Of a stretch of 55,178 nt of DNA, positions 16,154 to 55,076 are shown piece by piece. Source of the DNA: Acidobacteriota bacterium (GTDB taxonomy: Bacteria > Acidobacteriota > Vicinamibacteria > Vicinamibacterales > 2-12-FULL-66-21); the NCBI GenBank assembly GCA_003222675.1, contig QHWT01000041.1, forward strand, positions 1 to 55,178. Reading direction: 5' to 3'. Position 1 is the stretch's first letter; each line of letters opens with the position of its first letter. A model generated the notes under the pieces. That model did not search any database, was not told the DNA's origin, and saw only the letters and a list, made by a program, of their open reading frames with translations. The position numbers were made by a program, and so were the translations under genes.

Positions 16154-16156
16154 TGC

Positions 16157-16255: not shown

Positions 16256-16256
16256 A

Positions 16257-17084: not shown

Positions 17085-17085
17085 T

Positions 17086-33420: not shown

Positions 33421-34395
33421 TCAGTATTCAACCAACTTCCGCGCCCCCTCCACCACCTTGTCCACAGTTGGCAGAAACGCCGCTTCGAGCGGCGGCGCGT
33501 AAGGCACGGGCGCGTCTTCGGACGCAATCCGCATGATTGGTGCGTCGAGATACTCGAACGCCTCTTCCGCGATGATCGCCGCGAGTTCACCGCCAATGCC
33601 ACCCGTCCGCCGTGCCTCGTAGAGCAACAGCACGCGGCTCGTCTTTGCCACCGACGCGAGAATCGCCTCGCGATCGAGCGGCGCGAGGCTGCGAAGATCC
33701 AGCACCTCGGCGTGCACGCCGTCAGCCTCGAGTTGTTTCGCCGCGTCGAGGGCCGTGTGCACCATCGCGCCGAACGTGATGATCGTGAGGTCTGAGCCTT
33801 CGCATCGCACGGCGGCCTTCCCGAGCGGGACGATGTAGTCCTCGTCCGGCACTTCGTCCTTGATCCGCCGATAGAGGAACTTGTGCTCGAAGTAGAGCAC
33901 CGGGTCGTCGTCGCGGATCGCGGCTTTCAGAAGTCCCTTCGCATCGTACGCCGTCGATGGCTCGACCATCTTGAGGCCGGGCGTGTTGAGGAAGAACGAT
34001 TCGGGATTGAGCGAGTGAAAGGGACCGCCGCCCACGCCCCCGCCGCAGGGGCCCCGCACGACGATTGGCACGCCCGCGCCGTTTCGATACCGGCTCGTCG
34101 CGGCGAAGTTCGTCAGCATGTCGAAGCAGCAGGCGATGAAGTCGATGAACTGGATCTCGCAGACCGGCCGCATGCCCATGTACGACGCACCGATGGCGGA
34201 ACCGACGATCGCAATCTCGGAGATCGGCGTGTCGATGACGCGCGCTTCGCCGAACTTGTCCTGCAGCCCCTCGGTGACCTTGAACGCGCCGCCGTACGCG
34301 CCGACATCCTCGCCCATGACGAAGACGCGTTCGTCGGCGGACATCTCGTCGAACAGCGCCTGACGGATTGCTTCCAGATAGGTGATAACGGCCAT
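33421..34395 (-). CDS. 2-oxoacid dehydrogenase E1 component, beta subunit
   Basis: About 324 residues from ATG 34395 (MAVITYLEAIRQALF); an in-frame extension upstream is encoded by a REP palindrome and is unlikely to be translated. VFVMGEDVGAYGGAFKVTEGL, DTPISEIAIVGSAIGASYMGMRPVCEIQF and VLLLYEARRTGGIGGE are typical of E1 beta, which forms the thiamine diphosphate site with E1 alpha. Whether the complex uses pyruvate or branched-chain 2-oxoacids cannot be decided from the motifs. Confidence 0.92.
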   Translation of the reverse strand: MAVITYLEAIRQALFDEMSADERVFVMGEDVGAYGGAFKVTEGLQDKFGEARVIDTPISEIAIVGSAIGASYMGMRPVCEIQFIDFIACCFDMLTNFAATSRYRNGAGVPIVVRGPCGGGVGGGPFHSLNPESFFLNTPGLKMVEPSTAYDAKGLLKAAIRDDDPVLYFEHKFLYRRIKDEVPDEDYIVPLGKAAVRCEGSDLTIITFGAMVHTALDAAKQLEADGVHAEVLDLRSLAPLDREAILASVAKTSRVLLLYEARRTGGIGGELAAIIAEEAFEYLDAPIMRIASEDAPVPYAPPLEAAFLPTVDKVVEGARKLVEY

Positions 34396-34410
34396 GATGA
34401 ACGCCGAGGT

Positions 34411-34508
34411 GTAGGGCGGGTCTTTAGACCCGCCGGACATGCCGGGTCTGGTCTGAAGACCCGGCCTACGACACTTCTTCTTGCGTAGGGCGGGTCTTTA
34501 GACCTGCC
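34411..34508. repeat. Three REP-like palindromes between E1 alpha and E1 beta
   Basis: Plus copy 34411-34434 (GTAG, GGCGGGTC, TTTA, GACCCGCC), minus copy 34441-34469 (GTAG, GCCGGGTC, an enlarged 9-base loop, GACCCGGC) and plus copy 34485-34508 (GTAG, GGCGGGTC, TTTA, GACCTGCC). The last lies within the E1 alpha reading frame, and the TAG of the minus copy's GTAG is the E1 alpha stop codon. Confidence 0.88.
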
Positions 34509-35605
34509 GAGACCCTCGCAAACGGCGACTTCACCAGCTCGATTCTGGGTACCGCATAGTCATCGCCCGCGTAAACCCCGCGCGTGACCGTCGCGGGATC
34601 CGGCATCGGCTCGTCGACGGCAAGGTCCGCCTCTCGCGCGGCGTAGTCCTTCGCCATCTTGTCGATGTAGTCCAGCTCCCTGTCGCCGGCGATGCTGCGC
34701 TCGATCAGCACCTGCCTGAATCGCCGGAGCGGATCTTTCGCCGTCCACTCGTCGAGCAGCGTCTTCGGCACGTATCGCGCATCGTCGTGCTGCGCGTGCC
34801 CCTGCATACGCATTGTGTCGATGCCGATCAGCTGGGGTCCGTGACCCGCACGGGCGCTCTCGACCATTCTCTTCGCGACGTCGTACACGGCCAGCATATC
34901 GTTGCCGTCCACGAGCTCGTGCGCAATGCCGTACGATTCCGCACGTTCGTCGATCCGCTTGATCGCCATCTGCTGTGAAATGGGCGTCGAGTAGGCGTAC
35001 TTGTTGTCCTCGGCCACGACAACGAGCGGGATCTTCTGCACTGCCGCGAAGTTCATTCCCTCGTGAAACGCGCCGGTGCTGGTCGCACCGTCGCCGATCC
35101 ATGCCATCGCGACGCGCGGATTATTCCGCATACGCGCGCCCATCGCGATGCCTGCGGCCACGGGGATCGAATCACCGAGCATGCTGATTGGTCCGACAAT
35201 CACCGGCTCGTGGGTGTCCGGCGCAGGCATGTGAACGATGTGGATGTTGAGATCGCGGCCGCGGGAGTTCGACGTGCCCTTCGCCATGTACTGGCGGAAG
35301 ATCTCGATCGGGCGGACCCCCATCGTCATCAACGCGCCCATGTTGCGGATGAGCGGCAGCACGGCATCGCGGCGCTGCAGCGCATACGCCGTCGCGACGG
35401 ACTCCCCTTCCTGGCCGAGGCTGCGATAGAGGCCGCCAATCACCTTGCTCTGGCGAAACAGAATGACGAGCCGCTCCTCCACTTCGCGCGCGAGACGCGT
35501 GAAGTAATACATCTCGAGGAGCTGTTCGCGCGCAAGCAGGTCTGATGGCCGATCGGGATCGGCGACCCGCCACTCATCGGCGTTCAGCGTCGATTTGCCC
35601 GTCAT
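34466..35605 (-). CDS. 2-oxoacid dehydrogenase E1 component, alpha subunit
   Basis: About 379 residues from ATG 35605, overlapping the E3 stop as ATGA. The thiamine diphosphate motif is GDGATSTGAFHEGMNFAAV with the closing N in VVAEDNKYA; MRMQGHAQHDDARYVP contains the phosphorylation-loop-type region. It decarboxylates a 2-oxoacid and passes the acyl to E2. The C-terminal SAGLKTRPTQEEVS is encoded by a REP palindrome, so the original protein probably ended about 13 residues earlier. Confidence 0.92.
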   Translation of the reverse strand: MTGKSTLNADEWRVADPDRPSDLLAREQLLEMYYFTRLAREVEERLVILFRQSKVIGGLYRSLGQEGESVATAYALQRRDAVLPLIRNMGALMTMGVRPIEIFRQYMAKGTSNSRGRDLNIHIVHMPAPDTHEPVIVGPISMLGDSIPVAAGIAMGARMRNNPRVAMAWIGDGATSTGAFHEGMNFAAVQKIPLVVVAEDNKYAYSTPISQQMAIKRIDERAESYGIAHELVDGNDMLAVYDVAKRMVESARAGHGPQLIGIDTMRMQGHAQHDDARYVPKTLLDEWTAKDPLRRFRQVLIERSIAGDRELDYIDKMAKDYAAREADLAVDEPMPDPATVTRGVYAGDDYAVPRIELVKSPFARVSAGLKTRPTQEEVS

Positions 35606-37044
35606 GCGTGAATGGCGGCTCCATGCGCCGCATGCGCCGCCTCGCCCACTGCCTCCGACATCGTCGGATGCGCGTGAATCGTGCGAATGAGCTCTTCGAC
35701 GGTGCACTCGAGGCGCAGCGCGAGCGTGGCCTCTGCGACGAGCTCCGTCGAGCGCGGTCCGATCATATGAACGCCGAGCACCTCGTCGTACTTCGTCTCG
35801 GCGACGATCTTCACGAATCCTTCTGTCTCGCCGGCGATCCTCGCGCGGCCGAGCACCCCGAACTTGAACGACCCGACGCGCACGTCGTAGCCGCGCTGCT
35901 TCGCTTCCGCTTCCGTCAGGCCCACGCTCCCGATTTCCGGATCGCAATACGTGCAGCCGGGGACCTGGTCGTAGTTGATCGCGCGGAACTCCCGTCCGGC
36001 GATCCGTTCGGCGAGCGCGACGCCCTCGGCCGACGAGAGATGCGCGAGCTGCGGATGCCCGGGCTTGTCGAACGTGATCACGTCGCCGATCGCCGAGATG
36101 CCCTGAACGCCCGTGCGGTATTGCCCGTCGACGCGGATGTAGCCGCGTTCCAGGTTCAGGCCTGCCTCTTCAGCACCGAGTCCGTCCGTCACTGGTCCTC
36201 GGCCGGTCGCGACGAGCAGGTAATCCGCGCTGATTTTCGCCGTCTTGCCATCCGGTGTCTGCGCGTCGAGATCGATACTCTTCGCGCCGCTCTTCGCGCC
36301 CGTCACCTTCGTGCCGGTCAGTACCTTGATCCCCTGCCGCTTGAACGACTTCTCGAGCTCGGCCGACACAGCTTCGTCTTCGATCGGCACGAGGCGCGGG
36401 AGCAGCTCGATGATCGTGACGTCGCTGCCGAAGCGGCGAAAGATCGATCCGAACTCGACACCCACGGCGCCGCTGCCGAGGATCGCGATCGACGCCGGAA
36501 TCTCGCGAAGGCCGATCGCTTCATCGCTCGTGATGACCCGCTTGCGATCGACCTCGACGCCCGGGACGCTGCGCGGCTGCGAGCCGGTGGCGACGATGAT
36601 CTCCTTCTTGGCGGCGAGCGTCTGCTTGTCGCCTTCGGCGATCTCGACGGTGCCCTTGCCTGCGAGCCGGCCGGACCCCTTGATCCAATCAATCTTGTTC
36701 TTCTTGAACAGGAATTCGACCCCGCCGGTGAGGCCCTTGACGATCTTGTCCTTGCGAGCCTGCACCTGGTTCATGTCGATCCCGATCGCCTGCCCTGAGC
36801 CCTGTCGAAGGGCCGCCTCGCCTATCGTCAGGCCCCACTCCTTCCAGTCCTGCGCAATCTTGAGCGCATGCGCGTGCTCGAGCAGAGCCTTGGTCGGGAT
36901 GCACCCCCAGTTGAGGCAGGTGCCGCCGAGGACGGGCGCGCGCTCGACGACTGCCGTCTTGAGGCCGAGTTGCGCGGCTCGGATGGCAGCGACGTAGCCG
37001 CCCGTTCCGGACCCGATCACTACGACGTCGTATTCGTTGGACAT
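35602..37044 (-). CDS. lpdA: Dihydrolipoamide dehydrogenase (E3)
   Basis: About 480 residues from ATG 37044. FAD site VVVIGSGTGGYVAAIRAAQLG, redox-active disulfide GGTCLNWGCIPTK, NAD site SIAILGSGAVGVEFGSIFRRFG, and C-terminal HAHPTMSEAVGEAA with the catalytic His-Glu. It reoxidises lipoamide on E2. It is the first gene of the E3-E1 alpha-E1 beta-E2-lipB operon. A short LRQGSGQA string at about residues 77-84 looks like a small repeat inserted in frame. The leader is filled by GAGGTCC heptamers. Confidence 0.94.
   Translation of the reverse strand: MSNEYDVVVIGSGTGGYVAAIRAAQLGLKTAVVERAPVLGGTCLNWGCIPTKALLEHAHALKIAQDWKEWGLTIGEAALRQGSGQAIGIDMNQVQARKDKIVKGLTGGVEFLFKKNKIDWIKGSGRLAGKGTVEIAEGDKQTLAAKKEIIVATGSQPRSVPGVEVDRKRVITSDEAIGLREIPASIAILGSGAVGVEFGSIFRRFGSDVTIIELLPRLVPIEDEAVSAELEKSFKRQGIKVLTGTKVTGAKSGAKSIDLDAQTPDGKTAKISADYLLVATGRGPVTDGLGAEEAGLNLERGYIRVDGQYRTGVQGISAIGDVITFDKPGHPQLAHLSSAEGVALAERIAGREFRAINYDQVPGCTYCDPEIGSVGLTEAEAKQRGYDVRVGSFKFGVLGRARIAGETEGFVKIVAETKYDEVLGVHMIGPRSTELVAEATLALRLECTVEELIRTIHAHPTMSEAVGEAAHAAHGAAIHA
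36791..36813. repeat. Small dispersed-repeat-like insertion inside the E3 gene
   Basis: The stretch containing CCTGAGCCCTGTCGAAGGG resembles a widespread short intergenic palindrome seen in many bacteria (remembered, not searched). In frame it gives LRQGSGQA in a surface region between the disulfide and the NAD domain of E3, where relatives usually have no insert. Confidence 0.5.
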
Positions 37045-37049
37045 GCGTA

Positions 37050-37116
37050 TTCCGAGGTCCGAGCTCCGAGGTCCGAGCTCCGAGGTCCGAGGTCCGCGGG
37101 TCGGAGATCCGAGGTT
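37050..37116. repeat. GAGGTCC/GAGCTCC heptamer array in the E3 leader
   Basis: About eight 7-bp units, same family as the array inside the exporter gene (3409-3478). It ends a few bases before the E3 start codon and occupies the place where a ribosome site would be expected; only GGA in the last unit could serve. Confidence 0.85.
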
Positions 37117-37156
37117 CGAACGTCGGCTTGCCACGACAAAGCCGCGAAGCGGGACC

Positions 37157-37411
37157 CTAGTCTTTCTTCCGTATCGACGACAGGGGTACGAACGCCACCG
37201 TCTCTGTCGCTGCCGGCCCGGGCGCGCGGTCTTCTTCGTCCGGCACCGCCGGGTCGAGCCGCGCCACCTGTGATCTAAGACGCGTGAAGTCGTAGCGCAA
37301 TTCCCAGTACGACTGGTTGAGCGCCTCGAGCTTTCTCGACACGCGGCCCGCCCGCGTCCACGCCGCCCAGGCAAAGATCACTGCCACGCCTGCGATAGTC
37401 CACGAAAGCAT
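37157..37411 (-). CDS. Small membrane-anchored coiled-coil protein
   Basis: An 84-residue protein with one N-terminal helix (WTIAGVAVIFAWAAWT), a charged heptad-like segment (VSRKLEALNQSYWELRYDFTRLRSQVARL) and a disordered Pro/Glu-rich tail. It is likely anchored with most of the chain in the cytosol. I recognise no family. It precedes the 2-oxoacid dehydrogenase operon on the same strand, about 110 bp away across the heptamer array. Confidence 0.6.
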   Translation of the reverse strand: MLSWTIAGVAVIFAWAAWTRAGRVSRKLEALNQSYWELRYDFTRLRSQVARLDPAVPDEEDRAPGPAATETVAFVPLSSIRKKD

Positions 37412-37665: not shown

Positions 37666-39054
37666 ATGACCCGGCCCACTAAGACGATTCTGATCTGCGA
37701 CGACGATCAAGGCATGCGGGACACCCTGACCGCGATCTTGAAGCGCGATTACCGTGTCGTGACGGTGTCGAGCGGCGAGGCGGCGCTCGCGCTGCTGAAG
37801 AACGAGGACGTCGATCTCATCCTGCTCGACGTGCGTCTGCCGGGCATCAGCGGGTTCGACGTGCTGCGGATCGTCAAGGAGAACTACAGCCTGATCGAGT
37901 GCATCATGATCTCGGCCATCAACGAGGTCGAGACCGCCGTGCAGGCGATGAAGCACGGCGCCTACCATTACATCACCAAGAATTTCGACTACGACGAGCT
38001 GCGATCGCTCGTCCGTAACGCGTGCGAGCGCCAGGACCTGAACCGGCAGGTGATCACGCTGAGCGCGCAGGTCGCCGAGCAGAGCGAACGCGAGTTCCTG
38101 ATCGGGCCGAGCAAGCAGATCCGCGACATCGTCGATCTCGTGCAGCGCGTGGCGAAGCTCTCGGCGACGGTGCTGATCCTCGGCGAGAGCGGCACCGGCA
38201 AGGAGCTGCTCGCGCGGCTGCTGCACAGGGAATCGGGGCGCGGCGAGGCGCCGTTCATCGCGGTGAACATGTCGGCGATCCCGCACGAACTGGTCGAGAG
38301 CACGCTGTTCGGCCACGAGCGCGGATCGTTCACGGGCGCACACAAGCAGCAGCTCGGGAAATTCGAGCTGGCCGCAGGCGGCACGCTGTTCCTCGACGAA
38401 ATCGGCGATCTGCGGTTCGATCTGCAGGCCAAGCTGCTGCGCGCGATCCAGGAAGGGGAAATCGAACGCGTCGGCGGCACGAAGCCGATTCGCACCGATT
38501 TCCGCCTCATTGCCGCGACCAACGTCGATCTCGACAAGGCGGTCAAGGAAGCGCGCTTCCGCGAGGACCTCTACTACCGCATCAACGTCATTCCAATCCG
38601 GATGCCGCCGCTGCGCGATCGCATCGACGATCTTCCGGAGCTGGCACGCCTGTTCCTCAGTCGCTACAAGGGAAAGTTCCGAAAGCCGGTGAAGGGGATC
38701 GCGGATTCCGCGCTGAGGATTCTCGCGTCGTACTGGTGGCCCGGCAACATCCGCGAGCTCGAGAACCTGATCGAACGTCTCGTCGCGATGACCGACAAGG
38801 AATGGATCACCGACGAGGACCTGCCGCTCGAATATCACTTTGCCAAGCTCGACGCCGCGTCCACGACCGACGAAACGCGGTTCCAGGAGGCGTGCGACAC
38901 CTTCGAGCGCAACTTCATGCTGCGCGCGCTCGAGAAGTCTGACTGGAACGTGACCGCGACCGCCCGGTATCTCGGGATTCCTCTAAGCACCCTCAAGCAC
39001 AAGATGGCGCGCCTCGACCTCCGCGATCTCGCGAAGAAGCTCCGCGGCGCGTAG
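37666..39054 (+). CDS. NtrC-family sigma-54-dependent response regulator
   Basis: A 462-residue activator. Receiver domain (1-120): acidic DDD (12-14), phospho-Asp55 in LLDVRLPG, Lys in ITKNF. AAA+ domain (about 145-380): Walker A GESGTGKE, the sigma-54 contact loop as GSFTGA instead of GAFTGA, Walker B TLFLDEIGD, arginine finger region FREDLYYRINVIPI. C-terminal Fis-type helix-turn-helix (NVTATARYLGIPLSTLKHKMARL). It probably receives phosphate from the histidine kinase at 42897 and drives sigma-54 promoters such as those at 39133 and 39294. It opens the peptide-signalling locus. Confidence 0.93.
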   Translation: MTRPTKTILICDDDQGMRDTLTAILKRDYRVVTVSSGEAALALLKNEDVDLILLDVRLPGISGFDVLRIVKENYSLIECIMISAINEVETAVQAMKHGAYHYITKNFDYDELRSLVRNACERQDLNRQVITLSAQVAEQSEREFLIGPSKQIRDIVDLVQRVAKLSATVLILGESGTGKELLARLLHRESGRGEAPFIAVNMSAIPHELVESTLFGHERGSFTGAHKQQLGKFELAAGGTLFLDEIGDLRFDLQAKLLRAIQEGEIERVGGTKPIRTDFRLIAATNVDLDKAVKEARFREDLYYRINVIPIRMPPLRDRIDDLPELARLFLSRYKGKFRKPVKGIADSALRILASYWWPGNIRELENLIERLVAMTDKEWITDEDLPLEYHFAKLDAASTTDETRFQEACDTFERNFMLRALEKSDWNVTATARYLGIPLSTLKHKMARLDLRDLAKKLRGA

Positions 39055-39427: not shown

Positions 39428-40840
39428 ATGCAGCCCTCGATGTTTAATGTTCAGGTGCCCGTGGCGGAGCGCAATGAGGTGTTCCTGATGAACACCTTCA
39501 CAGACGCGCAGGTGATGGTCACGCCCGACGTGGTCGAACTGCTCGATCGGCTCGCGGCCGGCGAATCGCCGCGCGAGGAAACCGAGCGCGCCACGCTTGA
39601 ACAGCTCGCCGCCCACGGGTTCGTGGTGACCGACCGCGCGCAGGAGCGTCGCGACCTCGAGACCTTCTTCCGCGAGGTCCGCGAAGGGACCGACACGCTG
39701 AAGGTCACCGTGCTGACGACCCTCCAGTGCAACTTCGCGTGCGACTACTGCATCCAGGGGGATCACGGCGATTACAACAAGACCGCCGCGCGCATGTCGA
39801 TGGAGACCGCGGCGCGCGTGGCCGAGTGGACCGAGTCGCGGCTCGAGCGCGTGGGCCCGGGGCGCCTGGTGCTCACGTTCTTCGGCGGCGAGCCGCTGTT
39901 GAACCTGCCGGTCATGTACTACCTGTCGGCGCGGCTGCACGCGTCGTGCGAGGCGCGCGGCGTGCAGCTCCTGATCAACGTCATCACCAACGGTCTCCTG
40001 CTCACGCGCGACGTGGTCGAGCGGCTGAATCGCTACGGGCTCAATGGCGTGAAGATCACGCTCGACGGCGATCGCGACACGCACAACCGGATGCGGCCGC
40101 TGCGCGGAGGGCAGGGGACGTTCGACAAGATCATCAAAAACGTCCACGAGGTCGCCCACCTTACGAAGATCGCCGTGGGCGGCAACTTCGACGCCGACAG
40201 CGTGGACAGCTACCCGGCACTGCTGGATTTTCTGAGCGAGCAGGACTTCGCCAGCAAGCTGTCGAAGGTCACCTTCAAGCCGGTGATCCGCGCGAAGACG
40301 CAGACCGCGGCGAAGGGGCTCATCCCGCTCACGGCAGTCGCCCAGGACGGCAAGCCCTTGAACGGCGCGTGCATGACCTCGGCGGGCACCGGCGTCAGCC
40401 GCGTCTGCGACACGTGCAACTTCGTCGACGAGAAGATGGCGTTCCTGCGCGACGAGACGAAGAAGCATGGCTTCGCGACCGCGGACGGCGTGCACATGGG
40501 GCCGTGCGAGATCCACAAGAACAACGCGCACACGATCGGTCCTGACGGCTCGCTCTTCGCGTGCCCCGGGTTCGCGGGAGACGCGCTTCAGTCGATCGGC
40601 CACATCGACGGCCGCGAGGAGGCGTATCGCACGCAGGCGCTCCGCAATTTCGACCGCCTGCAGGCGTGGACCGAGTGCAACGACTGCGCATTCATTCCCG
40701 TCTGCGCGGGAGGCTGCACCGTCGCCGCGCACGCCGAGCTCGGCGACATGCACGCGCCCAACTGTCATAAGACGAGCTTCAAGGCCGGCGTGGTGACCCT
40801 GGCGCGTGATGCCGCGCGGGAGCTCGCGGCGGCGAATTAA
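39428..40840 (+). CDS. Radical SAM/SPASM peptide maturase
   Basis: A 470-residue enzyme. Residues 1-90 look like a small peptide-recognition domain (VTPDVVELLDRLAAGE, TLEQLAAHGFVVTD) of the PqqD/RRE kind. The radical SAM core carries Cys101-X3-Cys105-X2-Cys108 (CNFACDYC) and LTFFGGEPLLN. The SPASM domain has Cys360-X13-Gly-X4-Cys379, then Cys417-X2-Cys420-X5-Cys426-X3-Cys430 and Cys446, enough for two extra iron-sulfur clusters. Such enzymes crosslink or epimerise short ribosomal peptides. Three precursor-like peptide genes follow at once. The reaction type cannot be predicted. Confidence 0.92.
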   Translation: MQPSMFNVQVPVAERNEVFLMNTFTDAQVMVTPDVVELLDRLAAGESPREETERATLEQLAAHGFVVTDRAQERRDLETFFREVREGTDTLKVTVLTTLQCNFACDYCIQGDHGDYNKTAARMSMETAARVAEWTESRLERVGPGRLVLTFFGGEPLLNLPVMYYLSARLHASCEARGVQLLINVITNGLLLTRDVVERLNRYGLNGVKITLDGDRDTHNRMRPLRGGQGTFDKIIKNVHEVAHLTKIAVGGNFDADSVDSYPALLDFLSEQDFASKLSKVTFKPVIRAKTQTAAKGLIPLTAVAQDGKPLNGACMTSAGTGVSRVCDTCNFVDEKMAFLRDETKKHGFATADGVHMGPCEIHKNNAHTIGPDGSLFACPGFAGDALQSIGHIDGREEAYRTQALRNFDRLQAWTECNDCAFIPVCAGGCTVAAHAELGDMHAPNCHKTSFKAGVVTLARDAARELAAAN

Positions 40841-40909
40841 CAGATCACCGGCCCGCTTTCGGCGGGCACGCAACCGACCACTGTCAACCGTCCCTGAAAG
40901 GAGCCCACG

Positions 40910-40996
40910 ATGAAAGGCAAGAAGACTCAGGACCCCAAAAAGAACGGCACGCTTCGTCCCTGGCTCGTCGACGTTGCCGTCGACAATCTGCGCTGA
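40910..40996 (+). CDS. Precursor-like peptide 1 (28 residues)
   Basis: A tiny frame with an AAGGAG site 8 bp before the ATG. The Lys-rich leader MKGKKTQDPKKNG is followed by TLRPWLVDVAVDNLR. The PWLVD string aligns with PWIVD in the two downstream peptides, but the Cys before the Pro is Arg here. It starts 70 bp after the maturase stop on the same strand. It is too short for standard gene finders. A role as maturase substrate is inferred from position and the shared core. Confidence 0.75.
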   Translation: MKGKKTQDPKKNGTLRPWLVDVAVDNLR

Positions 40997-41079
40997 CGCG
41001 CGAGCCCATCACTCGCGAGTCGCAGGTCGTTAATCGTCAATTCGAGTCGGCGCGCCGGGCGCGCCAAGGAGTCTGCGTC

Positions 41080-41178
41080 ATGAAAATCACGATCATCAAG
41101 AAGAGCGACAGCAAGGTGAAGACGATGGCGGCCTGCCCCTGGATCGTCGACGAGCCCGCCATCGCAAAGAGCAAGTAG
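41080..41178 (+). CDS. Precursor-like peptide 2 (32 residues)
   Basis: The frame starts at ATG 41080 with an AAGGAG site 8 bp upstream. Leader MKITIIKKSDSKVKTM is followed by AACPWIVDEPAIAKSK. It matches the next peptide at 27 of 32 positions. The core holds one Cys, one Trp, and acidic residues usable for a crosslink. It lies within the maturase transcription unit. Confidence 0.82.
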   Translation: MKITIIKKSDSKVKTMAACPWIVDEPAIAKSK

Positions 41179-41222
41179 ACGCTGCGGTAAACCTGGTTTC
41201 ATTGGGTTGAATGGAGGCGGTC

Positions 41223-41321
41223 GTGAAAATTACAATCGTGAAAAAGGGCGACGGCAAGGTCAAGACAATGGCAGCGTGTCCATGGATCGTTGACGAGCCT
41301 TCGATTTCGAAATCGAAGTGA
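41223..41321 (+). CDS. Precursor-like peptide 3 (32 residues)
   Basis: The frame starts at GTG 41223 with GGAGG five bases upstream. Leader MKITIVKKGDGKVKTM, then AACPWIVDEPSISKSK. Compared with peptide 2, 14 codons differ only silently and five change the residue, all conservatively (I/V, S/G, S/G, A/S, A/S). That pattern shows the peptide is translated and under selection. The binding-protein gene starts 58 bp later. Confidence 0.85.
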   Translation: MKITIVKKGDGKVKTMAACPWIVDEPSISKSK

Positions 41322-41379: not shown

Positions 41380-42900
41380 GTGCGGAATCAGCGCCAGCTC
41401 GGTGCGGCGGCATATTTACTTGTCACGGCGGTCGGTGTGTGTGGTGCGGGGTGTGCTCGACCGCAGGAGAGGGGTCCGACAGCGGCGACACTGCGAATCG
41501 GAGTGTCCCTTCCAGCGGGACAGACGACGAGCACAGGCCTGAGGACCCTCATCCCGCTTCTCACCACCGAACCTCTGTTGACGAATGAAATGGATGGCAG
41601 CCAGGTCGCGCGGCTGGCGCAGGACTGGGCCTGGGACGAATCGCGCACGAAGCTGCAGCTGAAGCTCCGTCGCGACGTTCTTTTTCACGATGGGACGCCG
41701 CTCACACCCAAGGTGGTGGCGCAAGCCTTGCGCGCCCGAATCGCGGCGCATTCGGTGTCGAGCTTTGCGAGCGTCTCATCGGTCTCGGTGACCGGCGAAG
41801 ACGCCGTGACGCTCCAACTCACGCAGCCCGACTCGTTCCTCCTCCCCGACCTGGCCCTGGTCTCGATCGCGATGCCCGGGAAATCGGACATCGGAACCGG
41901 ACCGTTCAAACTCGCGTCGCAAAGTGGTCAGCAGACGCTGCTCCGGCGCTTCGATCAGTTCTATCGGGGGCGTCCAGCCATCGATGCTGTGGAGATCGAC
42001 ACGTACCCCACGCAGCGCAAGGCGTGGGCATCGATGATGCGCGGTAGTCTCGACATGTTGTACGAGGTCAGCAGGGACGCGGTGGAGTTCGTCGAAGCGG
42101 AATCCGCGGTGAACACCTATAAGTTTCCGCGTGCGTATTACATTCCGCTCATATTCAACGTTCGCCATCCCGTGTTGAAGAATGCGCAGGTCCGGCGGGC
42201 GATCAATGAAGCCCTGGACAAAGACGCGCTCGTGCAGGAGGGCCTGAGAGGCCGTGGAAGGCCTGCCGAGGGGCCAATCTGGCCGGACCACTGGGCATAC
42301 ATCGCGTCTGCGCAATCAACGACATTCAATCCCGATGCGGCCCGGCTTCGGCTGGATGCCGCCGGCTATCGTATCCCGCCCGTCACAGCCGGGCAGATGC
42401 CGAGCAGATTCTCGTTCACGTGTGCAGTCTGGGCGGAGGACGCGCGCTTCGAGCGGCTCGCACTCGTGCTGCAGAAACAATTCGCCGACATCGGCATCGA
42501 CATGCGCCTCGAGCCGCTGAGCGCCACCGCGTTCGACGAGCGCGCGCTGTCGGGCAGGTTCGATGCGCTGCTGATCGAAATGGCGGGCCGCTCATTGAGC
42601 TGGGTCTACCGCTTCTGGCATTCACCGAGCGGTCAAGTCGTGCTGAATTCGGGCTACCAATCGGCTGATTCTGCGCTGGAACGCATCCGGCGGGCGCGGT
42701 CGGACGATGAGGTTCGCCGCGGCGTCGTGGATTTAATGCGCGTCTTTACGGAGGACCCGCCTGCCGCCTTCCTCGCGTGGCAGATGCAGTCGCGCGCTGT
42801 GTCGGCACAGTTCGACGTGCGGGCGGAGCCCAATCGGGACATCCTCAGCAATGTGTGGCAGTGGCGTCCCGTGGCAGCGCCAGCATCCGTATCGCGATGA
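41380..42900 (+). CDS. Family-5 (peptide/oligopeptide) substrate-binding lipoprotein
   Basis: A 506-residue protein from GTG 41380. The signal peptide ends in GVCGAGC, a probable lipobox. The mature part is an SBP_bac_5 (OppA/DppA-like) bilobed binder: LTTEPLLTNEMDGSQVARLAQDWAWDES, LRRDVLFHDGTPLTPKVV, GTGPFKL and NVRHPVLKNAQVRRAINEALDKDALVQEGLRG are classic stretches. No permease or ATPase genes follow; instead the stop overlaps the histidine-kinase start. Its likely job here is to bind the matured peptide outside the membrane, for sensing or for uptake by a permease encoded elsewhere. Confidence 0.88.
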   Translation: MRNQRQLGAAAYLLVTAVGVCGAGCARPQERGPTAATLRIGVSLPAGQTTSTGLRTLIPLLTTEPLLTNEMDGSQVARLAQDWAWDESRTKLQLKLRRDVLFHDGTPLTPKVVAQALRARIAAHSVSSFASVSSVSVTGEDAVTLQLTQPDSFLLPDLALVSIAMPGKSDIGTGPFKLASQSGQQTLLRRFDQFYRGRPAIDAVEIDTYPTQRKAWASMMRGSLDMLYEVSRDAVEFVEAESAVNTYKFPRAYYIPLIFNVRHPVLKNAQVRRAINEALDKDALVQEGLRGRGRPAEGPIWPDHWAYIASAQSTTFNPDAARLRLDAAGYRIPPVTAGQMPSRFSFTCAVWAEDARFERLALVLQKQFADIGIDMRLEPLSATAFDERALSGRFDALLIEMAGRSLSWVYRFWHSPSGQVVLNSGYQSADSALERIRRARSDDEVRRGVVDLMRVFTEDPPAAFLAWQMQSRAVSAQFDVRAEPNRDILSNVWQWRPVAAPASVSR

Positions 42901-44648
42901 GACGCATCACGTCGCGCTTCGTTCTGCTCATCGCCACAGCGGCGATCGCGCCCCTCATGGTGTACGGCGCCGTGTCTGTGACGTCCTTGCGACGCGCGAA
43001 CAACGAATCTGTCAGGGCAGGGAATCTGAAGGTCGCGGGCCAAGTCGCCGAGCAGATCGAATTGTACGTCACGAACAACATCCGGGTTCTGCAATCCCTC
43101 GGGTCCGAGCTGACGGCGACGGCGTTGGCGACATGGCAGCAGGATCGGATGTTGAAGGACTACGTGCTCTCGTTCCCGGAATTTCGGGAAATCACCTTGT
43201 TCGATTCATCTGGAAATGTCCTTGCGTCGAGCGCGCTTGGAAAGAGTCGAGTGGCGCTGCCAGAAGCGGCGGCTCACGCCGCGAAGCGAATCTACATTGC
43301 ACCGATTCGAGTCGACGACGACTTCCTCCCGACGACGACGATTGCCGTGCAGCTCACGAGGCTGCAACAGAACACCGGCTGGGTCGTGGGGGAGATTGCG
43401 CTCGAGCAGTTGTGGCGCATGGTCGACAACATTCGTGTCGGCGCGAGCGGTCATGCCCTGATCGTCGGTGAGGACCTGCGACTGATCGCTCACGGAAACC
43501 CTGACGAGAAACGGCGCATCGCCAGCAGCGAGCAAGCCACCACCAACGCCGCGTTGAAGTTCGTGTCGGCTTTTCGCGCCGGCGGCGTCCCGGCAACACA
43601 GTATTTGAATGAAGCACGCGAGGACATGCTCGCCGTCGCGTCACCCGTTCGAGAGACCGGATGGACCATCGTGGTGGAGCAACCCACGACGGAGGCGTTC
43701 GCGACGACGCGCCGGCTCGAAGGCCAGCTGCTCACCGCGATCGCGCTCGCCCTTCTCGTCACGATGATCGTCGGCTACTTCTGGGGCCGCACCTTCATCC
43801 AGCGCATCTTCGCGCTGACGCGGGTCACACGCTCGATTGCGGAAGGCAAGTGGGAAACGCGCGTGCAGATGACGGGGCAGGACGAAATCCGCGAGCTTGG
43901 CGACGCGTTCAACTCGATGGCGGATCGGCTCGTGGAGCTGCGGGAGGACGTGCGCAAGCAGGAGCGGCAGGCGATGTTCGGACGCATCGCCGCGGGGCTC
44001 GTGCACGACCTGTCACATCCGATTCAGAACATCGGGAACAGCTGCAAGCTGATCCTGAAGATGTCGGACGACCAGGAGTATCGCGAAACCTTCCGGCGGA
44101 CGGTCGAGCGCGAGATGGTGATCGTCAAGCGCGTGCTCGACGATCTGCGCAACATCGCCCGGCCGATTCCGCTCGAGCGCTTCCCGGTGGATCTGAACAA
44201 ATCCGTGGCGGACGCGATCGAAGCGATGCTGCCGCACGCCGAGACCGCGGGGTTGACGCTGAAAGCGGAGCTCGCGTCGCAGCCGCTCTATATCGAAGGC
44301 GACGTGTTCGCGCTCGGACGCGTCTACCGCAACCTGATCCTCAACGCCATCCAGGCGACGGCGCCCGGCGGCCTCGTCGTCGCGGCGACCGAAGGACACG
44401 GCACGCGCGTGCAGGTGCGCGTTTACGACACCGGCTGCGGCATCCCGTCGGATCGGCTCAACGCGATCTTCGAAGACTTCGTGACGACGAAGCGCCGCGG
44501 CCTCGGCCTCGGCCTCGCGATTTCCAAGAAGATCGTCGAGCAGCTCGGCGGAAGCATCGCGGTCGCCAGCGAGGTGGGCAAGGGAACGACGTTCGTCATT
44601 GATTTCCCGCGGACCGAGGCGCGCCCGATCGCGCTCGTTGCCGGATAG
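42897..44648 (+). CDS. Membrane sensor histidine kinase
   Basis: A 583-residue kinase from ATG 42897 (ATGA overlap with the binding protein). There is a helix at about 8-28, a periplasmic Cache-like sensor (about 30-275; ITLFDSSGNVLASSALGKS), a second helix (LLTAIALALLVTMIVGYFWG), a HAMP segment (RSIAEGKWETRVQMTGQDEIRELGDAFNSMADRL), H-box VHDLSHP with His370, N-box NLILNAIQA, G-boxes DTGCGIP and GLGLGLAISKKIVEQLGG. It is the presumed partner of the NtrC-type regulator at 37666 and could sense the lipoprotein-bound peptide. Confidence 0.92.
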   Translation: MRRITSRFVLLIATAAIAPLMVYGAVSVTSLRRANNESVRAGNLKVAGQVAEQIELYVTNNIRVLQSLGSELTATALATWQQDRMLKDYVLSFPEFREITLFDSSGNVLASSALGKSRVALPEAAAHAAKRIYIAPIRVDDDFLPTTTIAVQLTRLQQNTGWVVGEIALEQLWRMVDNIRVGASGHALIVGEDLRLIAHGNPDEKRRIASSEQATTNAALKFVSAFRAGGVPATQYLNEAREDMLAVASPVRETGWTIVVEQPTTEAFATTRRLEGQLLTAIALALLVTMIVGYFWGRTFIQRIFALTRVTRSIAEGKWETRVQMTGQDEIRELGDAFNSMADRLVELREDVRKQERQAMFGRIAAGLVHDLSHPIQNIGNSCKLILKMSDDQEYRETFRRTVEREMVIVKRVLDDLRNIARPIPLERFPVDLNKSVADAIEAMLPHAETAGLTLKAELASQPLYIEGDVFALGRVYRNLILNAIQATAPGGLVVAATEGHGTRVQVRVYDTGCGIPSDRLNAIFEDFVTTKRRGLGLGLAISKKIVEQLGGSIAVASEVGKGTTFVIDFPRTEARPIALVAG

Positions 44649-45102: not shown

Positions 45103-45273
45103 ACGCCGGGTCTGAAGACAAGGATCCCGCCGGGTCTCACGGGTTCCTGGAAAGCCACGTCAATGGCCACGCTGAAATGCCAAATGCCAACACTGATTCA
45201 ATTCAGCATTGGGCATTTGACATGCGGCATGCAGGCTCTGGTTATGTCAGCAGCCTGTAGAGACCCGGCCTAC
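45103..45273. repeat. REP remnants around a repeat-rich gap
   Basis: A truncated copy (GCCGGGTCTGAAGAC near 45103) and a half copy (AGACCCGGCCTAC at 45261-45273) flank about 140 bp holding AAATGCCAAATGCC-type short repeats. The minus-strand GTAG of the half copy supplies the TAG stop of the HU gene. No gene is seen in 45048-45269. Confidence 0.65.
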
Positions 45274-45569
45274 TTGCGGGGGAGAACAGCGTCCTTGAGC
45301 TGCTTCGCGATGCGCGCCTTCACGACAGTCTTCGCGGGGATCTTGATCGCCTCGCCCGTCGCCGGGTTGCGGCCCATCCGCGCTTTGCGCTTCTGAACCA
45401 CCAGCTTCACCATCCCCGGCAGCACGAACTCACCCGAGCGCTTGAGCTCTTTCTCGGCAAGCACGTTGAGCTCGTCGAAGAACTCGCGCGCCTGCGTCCG
45501 CTTCACCTCGAACCGATCCGCGAAGTGCGAGAAGAGTTCGGATTTGCCCATCCTGCGGGCTTCTGCCAT
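45270..45569 (-). CDS. HU/IHF-family DNA-binding protein
   Basis: A 99-residue nucleoid protein. GKSELFSHFADRFEVKRTQAREFFDEL is the dimerising helical half, and GRNPATGEAIKIPAKTVVKARIAKQLKD the beta-arm and C-terminal helix, with the conserved RNPATG proline at the arm tip. It bends DNA and compacts the chromosome; the divergence of the middle (SGEFVLPGMVKLVVQKRKARM) suggests a lineage-specific paralogue. Its stop codon lies within a REP remnant. Confidence 0.88.
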   Translation of the reverse strand: MAEARRMGKSELFSHFADRFEVKRTQAREFFDELNVLAEKELKRSGEFVLPGMVKLVVQKRKARMGRNPATGEAIKIPAKTVVKARIAKQLKDAVLPRK

Positions 45570-45752
45570 CGGCTATTCCCCTTGCTTGGGCGCGCTCATC
45601 AAAACTGCCGCGTGACGGCCGCGCGCGCGTGCGGCAGCAGCGGAGAAATACCGGGATAAATCAGGGGGTATCCTAGCGCGCTTTTTTTTGCGGTGTCAAT
45701 CACGCGCGGGCGAAAAACCGCGATTTTCGGGCGTGAATGCTACAATTTTTCG

Positions 45753-46094
45753 ATGCCGCCGCTCGAGACGTTTCCCAACCCGCAGCCCGGCCGCGATTAT
45801 GAGATCGCGATTCGATGCCCGGAGTTTACGTCCGTGTGCCCTAAAACGGGGTTGCCGGACTTCGGCGAGATCCGGATCACCTACACGCCGGATGAGCGCT
45901 GCATCGAGCTGAAATCGTTGAAATATTACCTCGTCGATTTTCGCCAGAAGGGAATCTTCTACGAGGCGGTGACCAATCAGATCCTTGACGATCTCGTCGC
46001 CGCCTGCAGCCCGCGCCGCATGACCGTCATCGGCGATTTTACGGCGCGCGGAGGAATTTCGACAGCTGTGACGGCGACGTATCAGAAGAAGTAG
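45753..46094 (+). CDS. queF: NADPH-dependent 7-cyano-7-deazaguanine reductase QueF
   Basis: A 113-residue unimodular enzyme that reduces preQ0 to preQ1 in queuosine synthesis. [16 protein letters not shown] holds the active-site Cys and nearby Asp; [15 protein letters not shown] is the QueF signature, and [13 protein letters not shown] gives the substrate-binding Glu. The length is typical of the short form. An ATG with no strong ribosome site is preceded by a T-rich stretch. No other queuosine genes are adjacent. Confidence 0.93.
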
Positions 46095-48916: not shown

Positions 48917-49377
48917 CAGGCAACCCCCCCGGAGTCAAGCACGTCGGCTGTCCCCTTCTTTTGTGAAAAAATGGGGCCGTCCCCTTTTTTGGTCTGTGCC
49001 CGATCCGCGAGGTCGCCCATCGAAATCATTTCGAACAGGATGCGATGGCCGATCTCGGTGCCGGACGCCGCCACGCGACCGGCGGGCAGCTCGAGAACGC
49101 CGGCAGTACCGCGGCGCGGAAAGCGAATCCGCCAAGGCTTCATGTTGGGCACGCAGTCGATGATCACGCCGCGCTCGTCGAGCGCAATGACATCGATGGT
49201 GAACTTCATGCCGAAGGTGTGCACACCCCGGCTCGGCACGATCCACAACGCTTCACCCGGCTCCAGGCGCTCGTGGTTCAAGAGACCGGTGCGTCGCGCG
49301 ACGCGCGTGGCGGCGACGCCGACCTTATCGGCGATGACCGAGTTCAGGTTGACGTTCCTCGCCAGGAGCCGTTTCAC
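48916..49377 (-). CDS. DUF192 family protein
   Basis: About 153 residues from GTG 49377 (GTGA overlap with tadC). GLLNHERLEPGEALWIVPSRGVHTFGMKFTIDVIALDERGVIIDCVPNMKPWRI is the DUF192 core, and GVLELPAGRV its end. DUF192 proteins are small beta-rich proteins of unknown function often found near Tad genes. The C-terminal KKGDGPIFSQKKGTADVLDSG is encoded by a palindromic AAAATGGGG/CCCCTTTTTT repeat and is probably not part of the ancestral protein. Confidence 0.85.
   Translation of the reverse strand: MKRLLARNVNLNSVIADKVGVAATRVARRTGLLNHERLEPGEALWIVPSRGVHTFGMKFTIDVIALDERGVIIDCVPNMKPWRIRFPRRGTAGVLELPAGRVAASGTEIGHRILFEMISMGDLADRAQTKKGDGPIFSQKKGTADVLDSGGVA
48954..48990. repeat. Palindromic repeat at the DUF192 gene end
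   Basis: AAAAAATGGGG at 48965-48975 pairs with the CCCCTTTTTT arm at 48981-48990, preceded by CTGTCCCCTTCTTTT. It lies inside the last coding part of the DUF192 gene. On the minus strand this gives a GC stem with flanking A/T runs, terminator-like, although the next genes are tightly coupled. Confidence 0.65.
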
Positions 49378-50273
49378 TTCGTCTTCTCCACCATCGGAAA
49401 GAGCACGGTGACGAATCGAATGGCGGCCGGACCAATCGTCACGACCCAGATCGCCGGAAAGATGCAGGTGACGAGCGGGAACACCATCTTCACGCCCGTC
49501 TTCGCCGCCGCCTCTTCCGCGCGCTGGCGCCGTTTCGTGCGCAGCGTCTCGGAGTACACGCGCAACGACTGCGCGACGCTGGTGCCGAATTTGTCCGTCT
49601 GGATCAGCATCGTGACGAGCGAGCTGAGGTCGTCGACGCCCGTGCGGTCGGCGAGGTTGCGGAGCGCTTCGCTGCGCGGCTTGCCGGCGCGCAGCTCGAG
49701 ATTGATCAGGCGCAGCTCGTCGGCGAGCTCCGGATATGCGAACGCGAGCTCCTGGCCGACGCGGGTCAGCGCCGCATCGAGTCCCAGCCCCGCCTCGACG
49801 CTGACGACGAGCAGGTCGAGCATGTCCGCGAGCGACAGGCGGATCCGGTGCGCGCGGCGCTTCGCCAGCCGCGCGAGCACCATGCCGGGCAGGATGTAGC
49901 CGAGGCCGAGGCCACCGAGCGCAAGCGTCAGGTTCGGGCGCGCGATGAGGGAGGTCGAGAAGGCCATGAACAGGCCCAGCGCGAACAGCACGCGGATGCC
50001 GAAGAACATCGTCAGCGCCTCGTCGCGGCGGAAGCCCGCCTGCACGAGACGCAGGCGGAGGCTGCCCATTTCCTTGGCCGACTTCGGCACTTTCTCGCCC
50101 AGGCGCTTGAGCACGCCGGTGATGGTCTGGAATCTCGGCTTTTCCTCGCGCTCGCGGCCGAGCGTCAGCTCTTCGAGCCGGCGATCGATTGCCGCCGCGC
50201 GGTTGGGCATCAATGCGTACGCGGCGGCCGCGACGAGCGCGGTTCCAAACACGAACGCGAGAAGGGGCATCAT
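49374..50273 (-). CDS. tadC: Tad pilus inner-membrane platform protein TadC
   Basis: About 299 residues from ATG 50273 (a GTG at 50279 or ATG at 50270 are alternatives; longer frames are shadows). It is a type II secretion F-domain protein: N-terminal helix, cytosolic segment, helices near FGIRVLFALGLFMAFS, core LADMLDLLVVSVEAGLGLDAALTRVGQEL, and C-terminal helices (FPLVTCIFPAIWVVTIGPA). With TadB it forms the platform that couples the TadA ATPase to pilin movement. Confidence 0.9.
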   Translation of the reverse strand: MMPLLAFVFGTALVAAAAYALMPNRAAAIDRRLEELTLGREREEKPRFQTITGVLKRLGEKVPKSAKEMGSLRLRLVQAGFRRDEALTMFFGIRVLFALGLFMAFSTSLIARPNLTLALGGLGLGYILPGMVLARLAKRRAHRIRLSLADMLDLLVVSVEAGLGLDAALTRVGQELAFAYPELADELRLINLELRAGKPRSEALRNLADRTGVDDLSSLVTMLIQTDKFGTSVAQSLRVYSETLRTKRRQRAEEAAAKTGVKMVFPLVTCIFPAIWVVTIGPAAIRFVTVLFPMVEKTK

Positions 50274-50281
50274 CAACACGG

Positions 50282-51259
50282 CTACACCTCGATTTTGACG
50301 ACCTGCTTGATCCAGATATACCCAATCGTCTGCATCACGACGGTCGCGCCGAGCATGATGTGGCCCATGCGCTCTCGAAAGAGCAGCTGCATGTGCTCGG
50401 GATTGATGAAGCACAGGGCGACGCCAAGGAACGCCGGTAGAGCGAGCAGGACATATCCGGTCATTCGGCCGTGCGCCGTGTAGACCCGCACCTGGCGCAG
50501 AATCTTGAAGCGTTCACGCACGACGTGCGCGAGGTTCTCGAGAATCTCGGACAGGTTGCCGCCCGTCTCGCGCTGAATCAGCACGGCGGTCGAGAAGAAC
50601 TTGACGTCGAGGTGCGGGATGCGCTCGGTGAGATTGTTGAGCGAGTCCTTCATCGGCAGACCGAAGTTCTGCTCGTCGAACGTCTTCCGGAACTCGGGGC
50701 CGATCGGCTCCGGCATCTCGTCGGCCACCATCTTGAGGCCCGTCGCGAAGGCATGGCCGGCTTTCAGCGCGCGCGCCATCAGGTCGAGCGCCTCCGGGAA
50801 CGCCTCTTCAAATGCGCGCAGGCGGCGCGTGCGCTTGACCCTCAGGAACATGAATGGCAGCGCGGCGCCGACGACCATACCGCCCAGCCAGCCCACGGAC
50901 ATCCGAAGCGCAGCCGCGACGATGAAGCCGAATATGAGAGCGCAGACCAGCGCTACCAGTAGCAGCCCGCTGATGCTGATCTTGACGCCGGACTGCTCGA
51001 CCCACATGGTGAGCGCGGAACCGCGTGCCGAGGCTGCGACGAGCTTCTCGAACGCCGGCAGCGGTCCCTCGTGCCGGCTCTTCACCAGGCCCGTGGCTTC
51101 TTTCTGCGGGTCGTCCGCCGGTCGAACGACCTCGTCGAGACGCGCGTCCAGCTTCCGCTGAAGCATCATGCCCGGCAGCTTCGTGAACGCGTAGTACGCG
51201 CCGAACACGGCGCCCGCGCCGAGCACGAACATCGAGAGGATGAACACGACGGCGCCCAT
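50282..51259 (-). CDS. tadB: Tad pilus inner-membrane platform protein TadB
   Basis: About 325 residues from ATG 51259, sharing one base with the tadA stop (TGATG). N-terminal helix VVFILSMFVLGAGAVFGAYY, paired helices LLLVALVCALIFGFIVAAAL and LGGMVVGAALPFMFL, F-domain core FPEALDLMARALKAGHAFATGLKMVADEM and FFSTAVLIQRETGGNLSEILENLAHVVRER, then C-terminal helices. It is the first of two platform proteins; tadC follows after 8 bp. Confidence 0.92.
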   Translation of the reverse strand: MGAVVFILSMFVLGAGAVFGAYYAFTKLPGMMLQRKLDARLDEVVRPADDPQKEATGLVKSRHEGPLPAFEKLVAASARGSALTMWVEQSGVKISISGLLLVALVCALIFGFIVAAALRMSVGWLGGMVVGAALPFMFLRVKRTRRLRAFEEAFPEALDLMARALKAGHAFATGLKMVADEMPEPIGPEFRKTFDEQNFGLPMKDSLNNLTERIPHLDVKFFSTAVLIQRETGGNLSEILENLAHVVRERFKILRQVRVYTAHGRMTGYVLLALPAFLGVALCFINPEHMQLLFRERMGHIMLGATVVMQTIGYIWIKQVVKIEV

Positions 51260-52605
51260 CACCGCACCTCCGTGACGCCTTCGAACATGTCTGGCGGCAG
51301 GTGCACGCCCGCGGCCTTGAGCCGCTCGCACGCCTTCGGCCGGACACCGGTGGCGCGGAACCGGCCGATGACCTTGCCGTCCTGATTCACGCCGAGCTTC
51401 TCGAACAGGAAGATCTCCTGCATGGTGATGACGTCGCCTTCCATGCCGGTGATCTCCGACACGCTCGTCACCTTGCGGGTGCCGTCGCTCATGCGCGACT
51501 GCTGCATGACGATCTGGATGGCCGAGGCGATCTGCTGGCGCATCGCGCGTTCGGGCAGGTTGGTCGAGCCCATCGCAATCATCGTCTCGATTCTCGTCAG
51601 CGCATCGCGCGGCGTGTTCGCGTGCACCGTCGTCAACGATCCGTCGTGGCCCGTGTTCATCGCCTGGAGCATGTCGAGCGCTTCCTCGCCTCGGGTCTCG
51701 CCGACGACGATGCGGTCGGGGCGCATACGGAGAGCGTTGACCAGCAGCTGCCGCTGCTTGATCGCGCCCTTGCCTTCGACGTTGGGCGGCCGCGTCTCGA
51801 GGCGCGCCACGTGCTCCTGGTGGAGCTGAAGTTCCGCCGCGTCCTCAATTGTGACGATGCGCTCGCGCTCCGAGATGAACGCCGAGAGCACGTTGAGCAG
51901 CGTCGTCTTACCGGCGCCGGTGCCGCCGCTGATCAGCATGTTGAGCTTCGCGCGGACGCAGTGCTCGAGGAACTCGAGCATCGGCCGCGTGAGCGAACGG
52001 ATGTTCACGAGGTCTTCAGCCTTCAGCCGCTCGGCCGGAAAGCGGCGAATCGAGAGCAGCGGTCCGTCGACCGCGAGCGGCGGGATGATCGCGTTGACAC
52101 GCGATCCATCCGGGAGGCGCGCGTCGACCATCGGCGAGCTGTCGTCGACGCGGCGGCCGACGCCGCTCACGATGCGGTCGATGACGCGCATCAGATGTTT
52201 ATCGTCCTGGAACGTCGTGGGCAGGCGATCGAGCTTGCCGCCGCGCTCGACGTAGACGTGTTTGTGGGTGTTGACGAGAATATCGCTGATGCTCGGGTCG
52301 CGCAGCAGAGGCTCGAGCGGCCCGAGGCCGAAAACCTCGTCGATGATGTCCGCGAAAATCGCTTCCCGCTCCGTCATGCTGAGCGGCATGCCCTCTTCCG
52401 CGATCAAGTCGAAGAGCAGCGAACGGATTTCCGATTCCGCGCGCGCGCGCTCGGCCGAGGCCAGCGCCTCGAGATTGAGCCGGTTGAGCAATTTCCGGTG
52501 AACGTTGCCCTTGAGCTCGATGTACTGCGCGCGCGGCGCTTCGGGGCGTGGCACGCCGCGCGGCCCCGCGCCGCCCGACGGACCGATGGAAACAGGAGCG
52601 CTCAT
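51259..52605 (-). CDS. tadA: Tad pilus assembly ATPase TadA/CpaF
   Basis: A 448-residue secretion ATPase. N-terminal helical domain ([20 protein letters not shown]), [28 protein letters not shown], Walker [15 protein letters not shown], Asp-box [23 protein letters not shown], Walker [34 protein letters not shown]. This is the CpaF/TadA pattern of the hexamer that powers pilus assembly. It lies 15 bp after tadZ. Confidence 0.95.
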
Positions 52606-52620
52606 GGTTGACTCGGTCCC

Positions 52621-53820: not shown

Positions 53821-53833
53821 ATGGGAGACACCA

Positions 53834-53889
53834 GCTTCCGGCTTCCAGCTTCCAGCTTCCAGCTTCCAGCTTCTAGCTTCTAGCTTCTG
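53834..53889. repeat. CTTCCAG heptamer array, 8 units
   Basis: Eight contiguous 7-bp units (GCTTCCA five times in varied form, then GCTTCTA/GCTTCTG) begin exactly after the TadG-like stop codon and end just before tadZ. On the minus strand each unit reads TGGAAGC, which offers GGAAG as a weak ribosome site in every copy. Confidence 0.92.
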
Positions 53890-55044: not shown

Positions 55045-55076
55045 TGAAGCACCTCGATAGTCTGTCGGCATCTATC

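Follow-up and report, generated by a model that had tools for sequence, protein, structure and literature searches.

Tandem small-peptide genes behind a radical SAM/SPASM maturase in Vicinamibacterales: probable RiPP precursors with a candidate ring and a candidate sensing pair

Introduction

The described systems which come closest to the locus treated here are the ranthipeptides freyrasin (PapA and its maturase PapB) and SCIFF (with the maturase CteB), where a short precursor lies beside a radical SAM/SPASM maturase; both are from another phylum than the organism considered here. A further match by structure is TigE, whose chemistry is a change of Val or Ile. According to PMC9413430, PapB joins Cys to either acidic residue, Asp or Glu, and tolerates Cys-Xn-Asp spacings of n = 0–6; CteB consists of RRE, radical SAM and SPASM domains, as outlined in a section of PMC8326336. 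For clostridia, a connection of SCIFF-derived ranthipeptides with Agr quorum sensing was reported (Chen 2020, as cited in a passage of PMC8102284), i.e., a precursor and a radical SAM enzyme were reported there to affect cell signalling, with Agr being, as far as that passage goes, a separate system.

The window, by which we mean the whole stretch of DNA that was analysed (55,178 nucleotides, contig QHWT01000041.1, assembly GCA_003222675.1), comes from a bacterium of the Vicinamibacterales (Acidobacteriota). This order is widespread and mostly uncultured, and no peptide signal was found for it in the literature searched. A preliminary description of the window had pointed out two paralogous frames of 32 codons. 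These peptides are not orphans; they belong behind a radical SAM/SPASM maturase, together with a third small ORF. As in PapA, a Cys is paired with Asp or Glu, although PapA has six Cys with a spacing of X3, whereas the family of the window has one Cys per peptide and a spacing of X4, and some sister peptides are free of Cys. In contrast to the clostridial arrangement, a binding protein and a kinase are encoded within the same block.

Results and Discussion

The maturase

The maturase gene (39428..40840, plus strand) encodes 470 residues, with Pfam Radical_SAM (8.2e-16) and Fer4_12 above cut-off and SPASM below cut-off at E 0.039. Thirteen Cys, namely a CX3CX2C triad and ten C-terminal ones, are invariant in all 38 aligned maturases. 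In the predicted model (mean pLDDT 77.4) residues 7–86 form three strands and three helices, with pLDDT blocks of 82–93, and the N-terminal domain (residues about 1–86) is predicted to be RRE-like and leader-binding. A structure search returned TigE (8vpo) over residues 1–466 (Z 24.3, 393 residues, 17% identity) and CteB over residues 4–466 (Z 23.7, 389 residues), which is a tie; both alignments, starting from residue 1 or 4, take in the RRE-like part, which few other structural matches cover. With phmmer, the maturase and 8vpo gave 34 bits.

Among the NCBIfam models, TIGR04280 (geopeptide maturase, a hypothetical equivalog) was the best match, nearly over the full length, with 260.2 bits versus a cut-off of 400; the PapB family NF047865 was matched with 126.8 bits versus a cut-off of 340. 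Every NCBIfam match among those listed (25 of 68) stayed below its curated cut-off. None of 396 genomes of the phylum passed the TIGR04280 cut-off, and the geopeptide precursor models of NCBIfam did not match the peptides. Thus, the enzyme may work like these maturases and yet belong to neither family.

Matches to the maturase were present in 62 of 149 relatives and in 19 of the 396 sampled phylum genomes, all 19 being of the window's own order, Vicinamibacterales, as judged from record titles. A genome scan yielded 52 loci, mostly titled Acidobacteria and some Vicinamibacterales, with a few titled Luteitalea, Sulfopaludibacter, Terriglobia or Acidimicrobiia. Two further maturase matches of about 210 bits (L110 and L111), from other acidobacterial families, were set aside as other systems, a profile search of the whole loci giving nothing below E 2.4. 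In L111 an ORF of 36 residues with three Cys, on the minus strand and 25 nt behind the maturase, is perhaps a precursor of another type.

The peptide family

Both genes of the pair are on the plus strand. The first (41080..41178) starts with ATG and encodes 32 residues, with a leader beginning MKITIIKK and a core CPWIVDE; the second (41223..41321) encodes 32 residues from a GTG, or 36 from an alternative ATG at 41211. Peptides of this kind are termed type B here. Between the maturase and the pair, outside the range of the preliminary description, a type A ORF is located (40910..40996, plus strand), which encodes 28 residues without Cys and has a Shine-Dalgarno sequence AAAGGAG (40897..40903) ahead of its ATG at 40910; its RPWLVDV is the window's form of a core [RHT]PWLVDV.

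Since a search by the first peptide alone reached 17 of the 149 relatives at E 0.01, a profile was used for the remaining ones. By profile search, type B peptides were present in 51 of 58 maturase loci, the window included. Five of the seven loci without a peptide have less than 100 nt of downstream DNA, and two carry broken copies beside the maturase, one with two in-frame stops (L086, about 3366–3470) and one in which MKIT alone is left (L058, about 7422–7520); assembly error may be the source of both. When both strands were searched, 53 matches were found on the maturase strand and none on the opposite one. The distance between the maturase stop and the start of the first peptide is mostly −3 to 80 nt, and larger where type A precedes this peptide. 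Type A homologues occurred in eight of the 58 loci, again counting the window, and each of these has a Cys peptide as well. As a control, both profiles were run on 12,028 ORFs which lie beyond the peptide stretch in 50 loci and the window; no match was better than E 0.75 for type B and E 0.32 for type A.

The leader mostly reads MKI, T/K, V/I, V/I, KK, and is basic and strand-like. Copy numbers vary: the source genome has these two copies, the next match being at E 2.4, and in locus L079 (7447–8330) a single maturase is followed by six peptide genes in tandem, of which four are near-identical and two are free of Cys. No significant match of the peptides was obtained in NCBIfam, Pfam (none at E 1) or PHROGs (E 0.13 and 0.4); searching plasmids by tblastn with peptide 1 was likewise negative, and no description of the family was found in the published literature searched. 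An AgrD match in NCBIfam (E 0.06, 13.6 bits versus a cut-off of 19), seen with the 36-residue form only, was taken as chance.

Radical SAM RiPPs are recognized by a small, conserved peptide gene next to a radical SAM/SPASM enzyme, and this arrangement is found here. A role of the small ORFs as RiPP precursors is strongly supported by this comparative evidence, and we consider it very probable.

Which link would be made

Cys is present in 60 of 64 type B peptides, exactly one in 59 of these. The position five residues on is acidic in 58 of the 60 (Asp in 42, Glu in 16), with Ala or Thr in the other two. Val or Ile occupies Cys+4 in 47; at Cys+3, 56 have a hydrophobic or aromatic residue and four have Ser. 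Pro at Cys+1 (47 of 60) and Trp at Cys+2 (38 of 60) make CPW frequent, not obligatory. The preliminary description had proposed ACPWIVDEP as a query for further copies, but across the family only the Cys and the acidic residue at +5 are nearly invariant; as read from the alignment, the core of the family is Cys-X4-Asp/Glu and not CPWIVDEP.

A Cys donor and an acceptor residue in the core, as in ranthipeptides, are thus found in the type B peptides and are absent from the eight type A peptides. The interchange of Asp and Glu at a fixed distance from the Cys makes a Cys-Asp/Glu link the most economical reading. A peptide with Ser in place of Cys, in the one genome which keeps a peptide and lacks the maturase (see below), agrees with a link through Cys, as far as a single case goes. 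Evidence against a universal Cys-Asp bond comes from the Cys-free peptides and from the two which have Ala or Thr at Cys+5. Since the Cys-free copies (eight of type A and four of type B, the latter in pairs in L079 and L019) retain the LVD part as PWLVD or PFLVD, a link through Cys cannot be the modification of these peptides. From conservation and by analogy with PapB, a single Cys-Asp/Glu ring appears likely, if only by a little over an even chance.

The alternative that survives best is that the peptides are RiPP precursors subject to other radical chemistry, for example a C-C link at Trp/Phe or Ile/Val, an epimerization, or a TigE-like change of Val or Ile, with the Cys having a different role. 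It would account for the PWLVD or PFLVD retained without Cys and for the residues preferred at Cys+3 and Cys+4, and TigE is the top structural match, even if tied with CteB. However, the Cys is the most conserved residue of the core and is the one replaced in the sole locus that keeps a peptide without maturase, and no aromatic residue is conserved between Cys and acid, as CITVVD, CPVLVD and CVQMVD demonstrate. Because of such cores, ring chemistry using aromatic residues only, which had been considered for the PW, was ranked lower. Altogether we regard other chemistry as less likely, at clearly below an even chance.

With a Cys-Asp/Glu ring, the following course could be envisaged. The leader would be held by the RRE-like domain of the upstream maturase, as its predicted fold suggests, and the enzyme would then join two residues of the core by one intramolecular bond, most probably a thioether from Cys to the Asp or Glu five residues on, a step proposed from the conservation pattern and the chemistry of PapB. 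The ring peptide might then be trimmed and released via general export and proteolysis, no such genes being seen here.

Binding protein, kinase and possible sensing

Behind the pair follow, on the plus strand, a gene for a family 5 solute-binding lipoprotein of the oligopeptide/nickel type (41380..42900; Pfam SBP_bac_5, 4.7e-58) and one for a histidine kinase with a dCache sensor (42897..44648; Pfam dCache_1, HAMP, HATPase_c). Both genes are translationally coupled: the stop of the former and the start of the kinase share the sequence ATGA. AppA was the best PDB sequence match of the binding protein, and Foldseek gave NikZ, NikA and AppA with a nonapeptide. Its N-terminal Cys25 is invariant in 24 of 24 sequences and was read by eye as the lipoprotein Cys. 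The binding protein was found in 42 and the kinase in 38 of 50 loci, the loci without them having less than 2 kb of downstream DNA.

A peptide gene, an extracytoplasmic binding protein and a sensor kinase are grouped in one unit. According to Pfam, neither the ten neighbours scanned in the window nor ten recurrent neighbour ORFs elsewhere, the latter including five with no match at all, contain an exporter, a permease or a peptidase. A binding lipoprotein with no adjoining permease and with a coupled Cache kinase suggests sensing; such binding proteins also stimulate transmembrane receptors, according to a portion of PMC9602780. The lipid-anchored protein would capture the peptide and trigger the co-translated Cache kinase, as gene order and co-occurrence indicate.

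Over 32 loci the mean pairwise identity was 37% for the binding protein, 55% for the kinase, 63% for the maturase and 73% for the regulator upstream of the maturase, the binding protein thus diverging fastest of the four genes compared. Its distances correlate with those of the core peptides (partial r 0.25, p 0.0005, with regulator and maturase held constant). Kinase (0.29) and maturase (0.27) correlate as strongly with the peptide, so the receptor is not singled out, shared ancestry being controlled in part; the correlation is weak support for sensing. Overall, signalling through binding protein and kinase appears possible from these gene arrangements, with slightly less than an even chance in our estimate.

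Less probable still is that the mature peptide is a redox cofactor, a metal ligand or an antimicrobial, with the binding protein recovering the peptide or its metal complex. PQQ provides a precedent, being a small peptide cofactor made by a radical SAM route (described as such in a section of PMC8326336); the binding protein is as similar to NikZ and NikA as to AppA, and no exporter was seen nearby. Against it, Pfam named no ABC permease or TonB receptor among the scanned neighbours, and it is a sensor kinase that is coupled to the binding protein. Moreover, the recurrent dehydrogenase neighbours are subunits of pyruvate dehydrogenase, and LpdA stays in four of five loci which lack the block. 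We consider this explanation improbable.

The block at its chromosomal site

To the left of the maturase lies a sigma-54-type response regulator (37666..39054, plus strand; Pfam Response_reg, Sigma54_activat and HTH_8, i.e., receiver, AAA+ and Fis HTH), which precedes the maturase in the same orientation in 48 of 50 loci, the remaining two having no upstream DNA. The left border is formed by genes for pyruvate dehydrogenase E1 and LpdA (window 33421–37374) and the right border by HU (Bac_DNA_binding) and QueF (45270–46094); HU is 70–99% identical across the loci reaching it. E2 and lipoate ligase/transferase recur further left in other loci. At greater distances in the window, Tad/Flp-type secretion genes are present at 49374–55071, about 4.7 kb past the block (Pfam T2SSF, T2SSE and Tad, others by eye), as well as three hopanoid/carotenoid-like ORFs at 14822–17970 (by eye, two phytoene/squalene synthase-like and one amine oxidase-like).

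Among the 149 genomes, 62 have the maturase, 58 the binding protein and 57 both, with five having the maturase only and one the binding protein only. Maturase and kinase occur together in 57 genomes, the maturase without kinase in five and the kinase without maturase in nine. Contig ends are close by in several of the kinase-only genomes: in G001, G023, G127 and G132 the kinase is within 183 nt of the contig start, and G048, G096 and G137 have a contig end immediately ahead of the kinase or binding-protein gene. G116 (L120) carries a genuine remnant of the block: maturase and binding protein are lost, and a peptide of the same leader type, the one with Ser instead of Cys, remains between the regulator and a frame-disrupted kinase. 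In G123 an incomplete kinase containing a stop immediately adjoins residues 1–47 of the regulator (L122:2563–3842), which could be due to a deletion or an assembly fault.

The regulator is kept in 28 of the 149 genomes with no maturase match, and five such loci, chosen for this purpose from the 28, were read. In four of them 64–130 nt separate the regulator from the HU gene, versus 6,216 nt in the window; in the fifth (L113) the site is not empty but occupied by other genes, about 6 kb in length. These (L113:6400–12000, genome G052) resemble by eye a Tad/Cpa pilus-like set with TadE/G-, secretin- and CpaB-like genes. Maturase, peptide, binding protein and kinase are thus gained or lost mostly together, at a site with constant neighbours.

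That the regulator controls the block through a sigma-54 promoter was considered but is not supported: the regulator persists in those 28 genomes, and the site is not clearly enriched. With a 14-base consensus, four of 50 loci (8%) scored at least 8 before the maturase, versus 3.5% of 1,000 control stretches (one-sided p 0.10). A sequence (G/A)GGCAA-N4-TTGC, 172–199 nt before the maturase start, was seen in L072, L090, L095 and L097, in these four only; it is possibly a clade-specific sigma-54 site.

Coding status of the pair

The count of 14 silent and five replacement codons given in the preliminary description proved exact in a codon-by-codon comparison (start and stop codons excluded), the replacements being I/V, S/G, S/G, A/S and A/S. 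There is no indel, as had been stated, and KVKTMAACPWIVDEP is identical in both copies. The ribosome sites were likewise recovered: AAGGAG (41066..41071) ahead of the ATG at 41080, and GGAGG (41213..41217) 5 nt ahead of the GTG at 41223. This GTG is probably the true start of the second copy, since no Shine-Dalgarno sequence was seen before the ATG at 41211.

The 27 base differences of the pair are distributed as 7/2/18 over codon positions 1/2/3. When the same substitutions were placed at random on sites of the same base, a mean of 16.2 amino acid changes resulted, and six or fewer, six being the observed number (five replacements plus the start codon), in none of 20,000 trials. In each of the five other frames replacements outnumber silent changes; stops occur in the first copy in frames +1 and −2 and in the second copy only in frame +2, while frames −0 and −1 are open in the first copy, the one viewed.

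With start codons excluded, the pair has 16.0 silent differences per 19.3 silent sites and 8.0 replacement differences per 73.7 sites; as dS is saturated, no dN/dS can be quoted for it. In 11 other within-locus pairs, six of them from L079, dN/dS was 0 to 0.31. Between genomes (peptides of the window, L006 and L054) the ratio was about 0.2 to 0.6 in the ten of 12 comparisons for which it is defined, with dN of 0.16–0.41 and dS of 0.53–2.2 in ten and saturated in two. Hence the strong purifying selection claimed earlier is borne out by the permutation and the within-locus ratios, but between genomes the ratios, although below 1, are weaker than that wording. Among the homologous loci, two of 53 with readable downstream DNA have broken copies.

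Translation of these short genes had been claimed, too, and homologues in so many loci, with a Shine-Dalgarno-like word before 67 of 67 peptide starts (a count without background rate), agree with it. On comparative grounds, translation and conservation of the peptides can be regarded as established. That the ORFs are regulatory leader peptides, i.e., translational attenuators of the binding-protein and kinase genes, would fit their position directly upstream of the binding-protein gene and their strong ribosome sites; but it is very improbable, considering that the amino acid sequence is kept across diverged genomes, that peptides accompany 51 of the 53 maturase loci with readable downstream DNA, and that tandem near-identical copies exist in L079. 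A merely recent noncoding duplication, similar by chance or by constraint at the DNA level, for which the presence of just two copies in the genome might be adduced, has a negligible probability in view of the third-position bias and the permutation result; the existence of homologues in 51 of 58 loci refutes it already.

Conclusions

The best explanation of the pair, to which we would give about an even chance as a whole, is that of tandem precursors of a radical-modified RiPP with one ring, which is probably a thioether between Cys and Asp/Glu; the binding-protein and kinase pair would probably be the sensor of this RiPP. More tentative, and in our view rather doubtful in its entirety, is the wider proposal of an acidobacterial peptide-pheromone unit, which would combine a Cys-X4-Asp/Glu ring, sensing by lipoprotein and Cache kinase, one block at a fixed site, and Cys-free sister peptides with a second modification.

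The family is new within the literature and databases searched, its kind being already known, and it is found in a single group of bacteria from soil and the sea, most of them uncultured. Annotation normally passes over genes this short, so the family would escape protein-based mining. For a branch of maturases which scores below the listed curated models, the block offers a short substrate that can be tested and for which one ring is predicted, and a candidate receptor is encoded next to precursor and maturase. If the binding protein captures the peptide and triggers the kinase, the block would in itself make up a complete peptide-signalling system.
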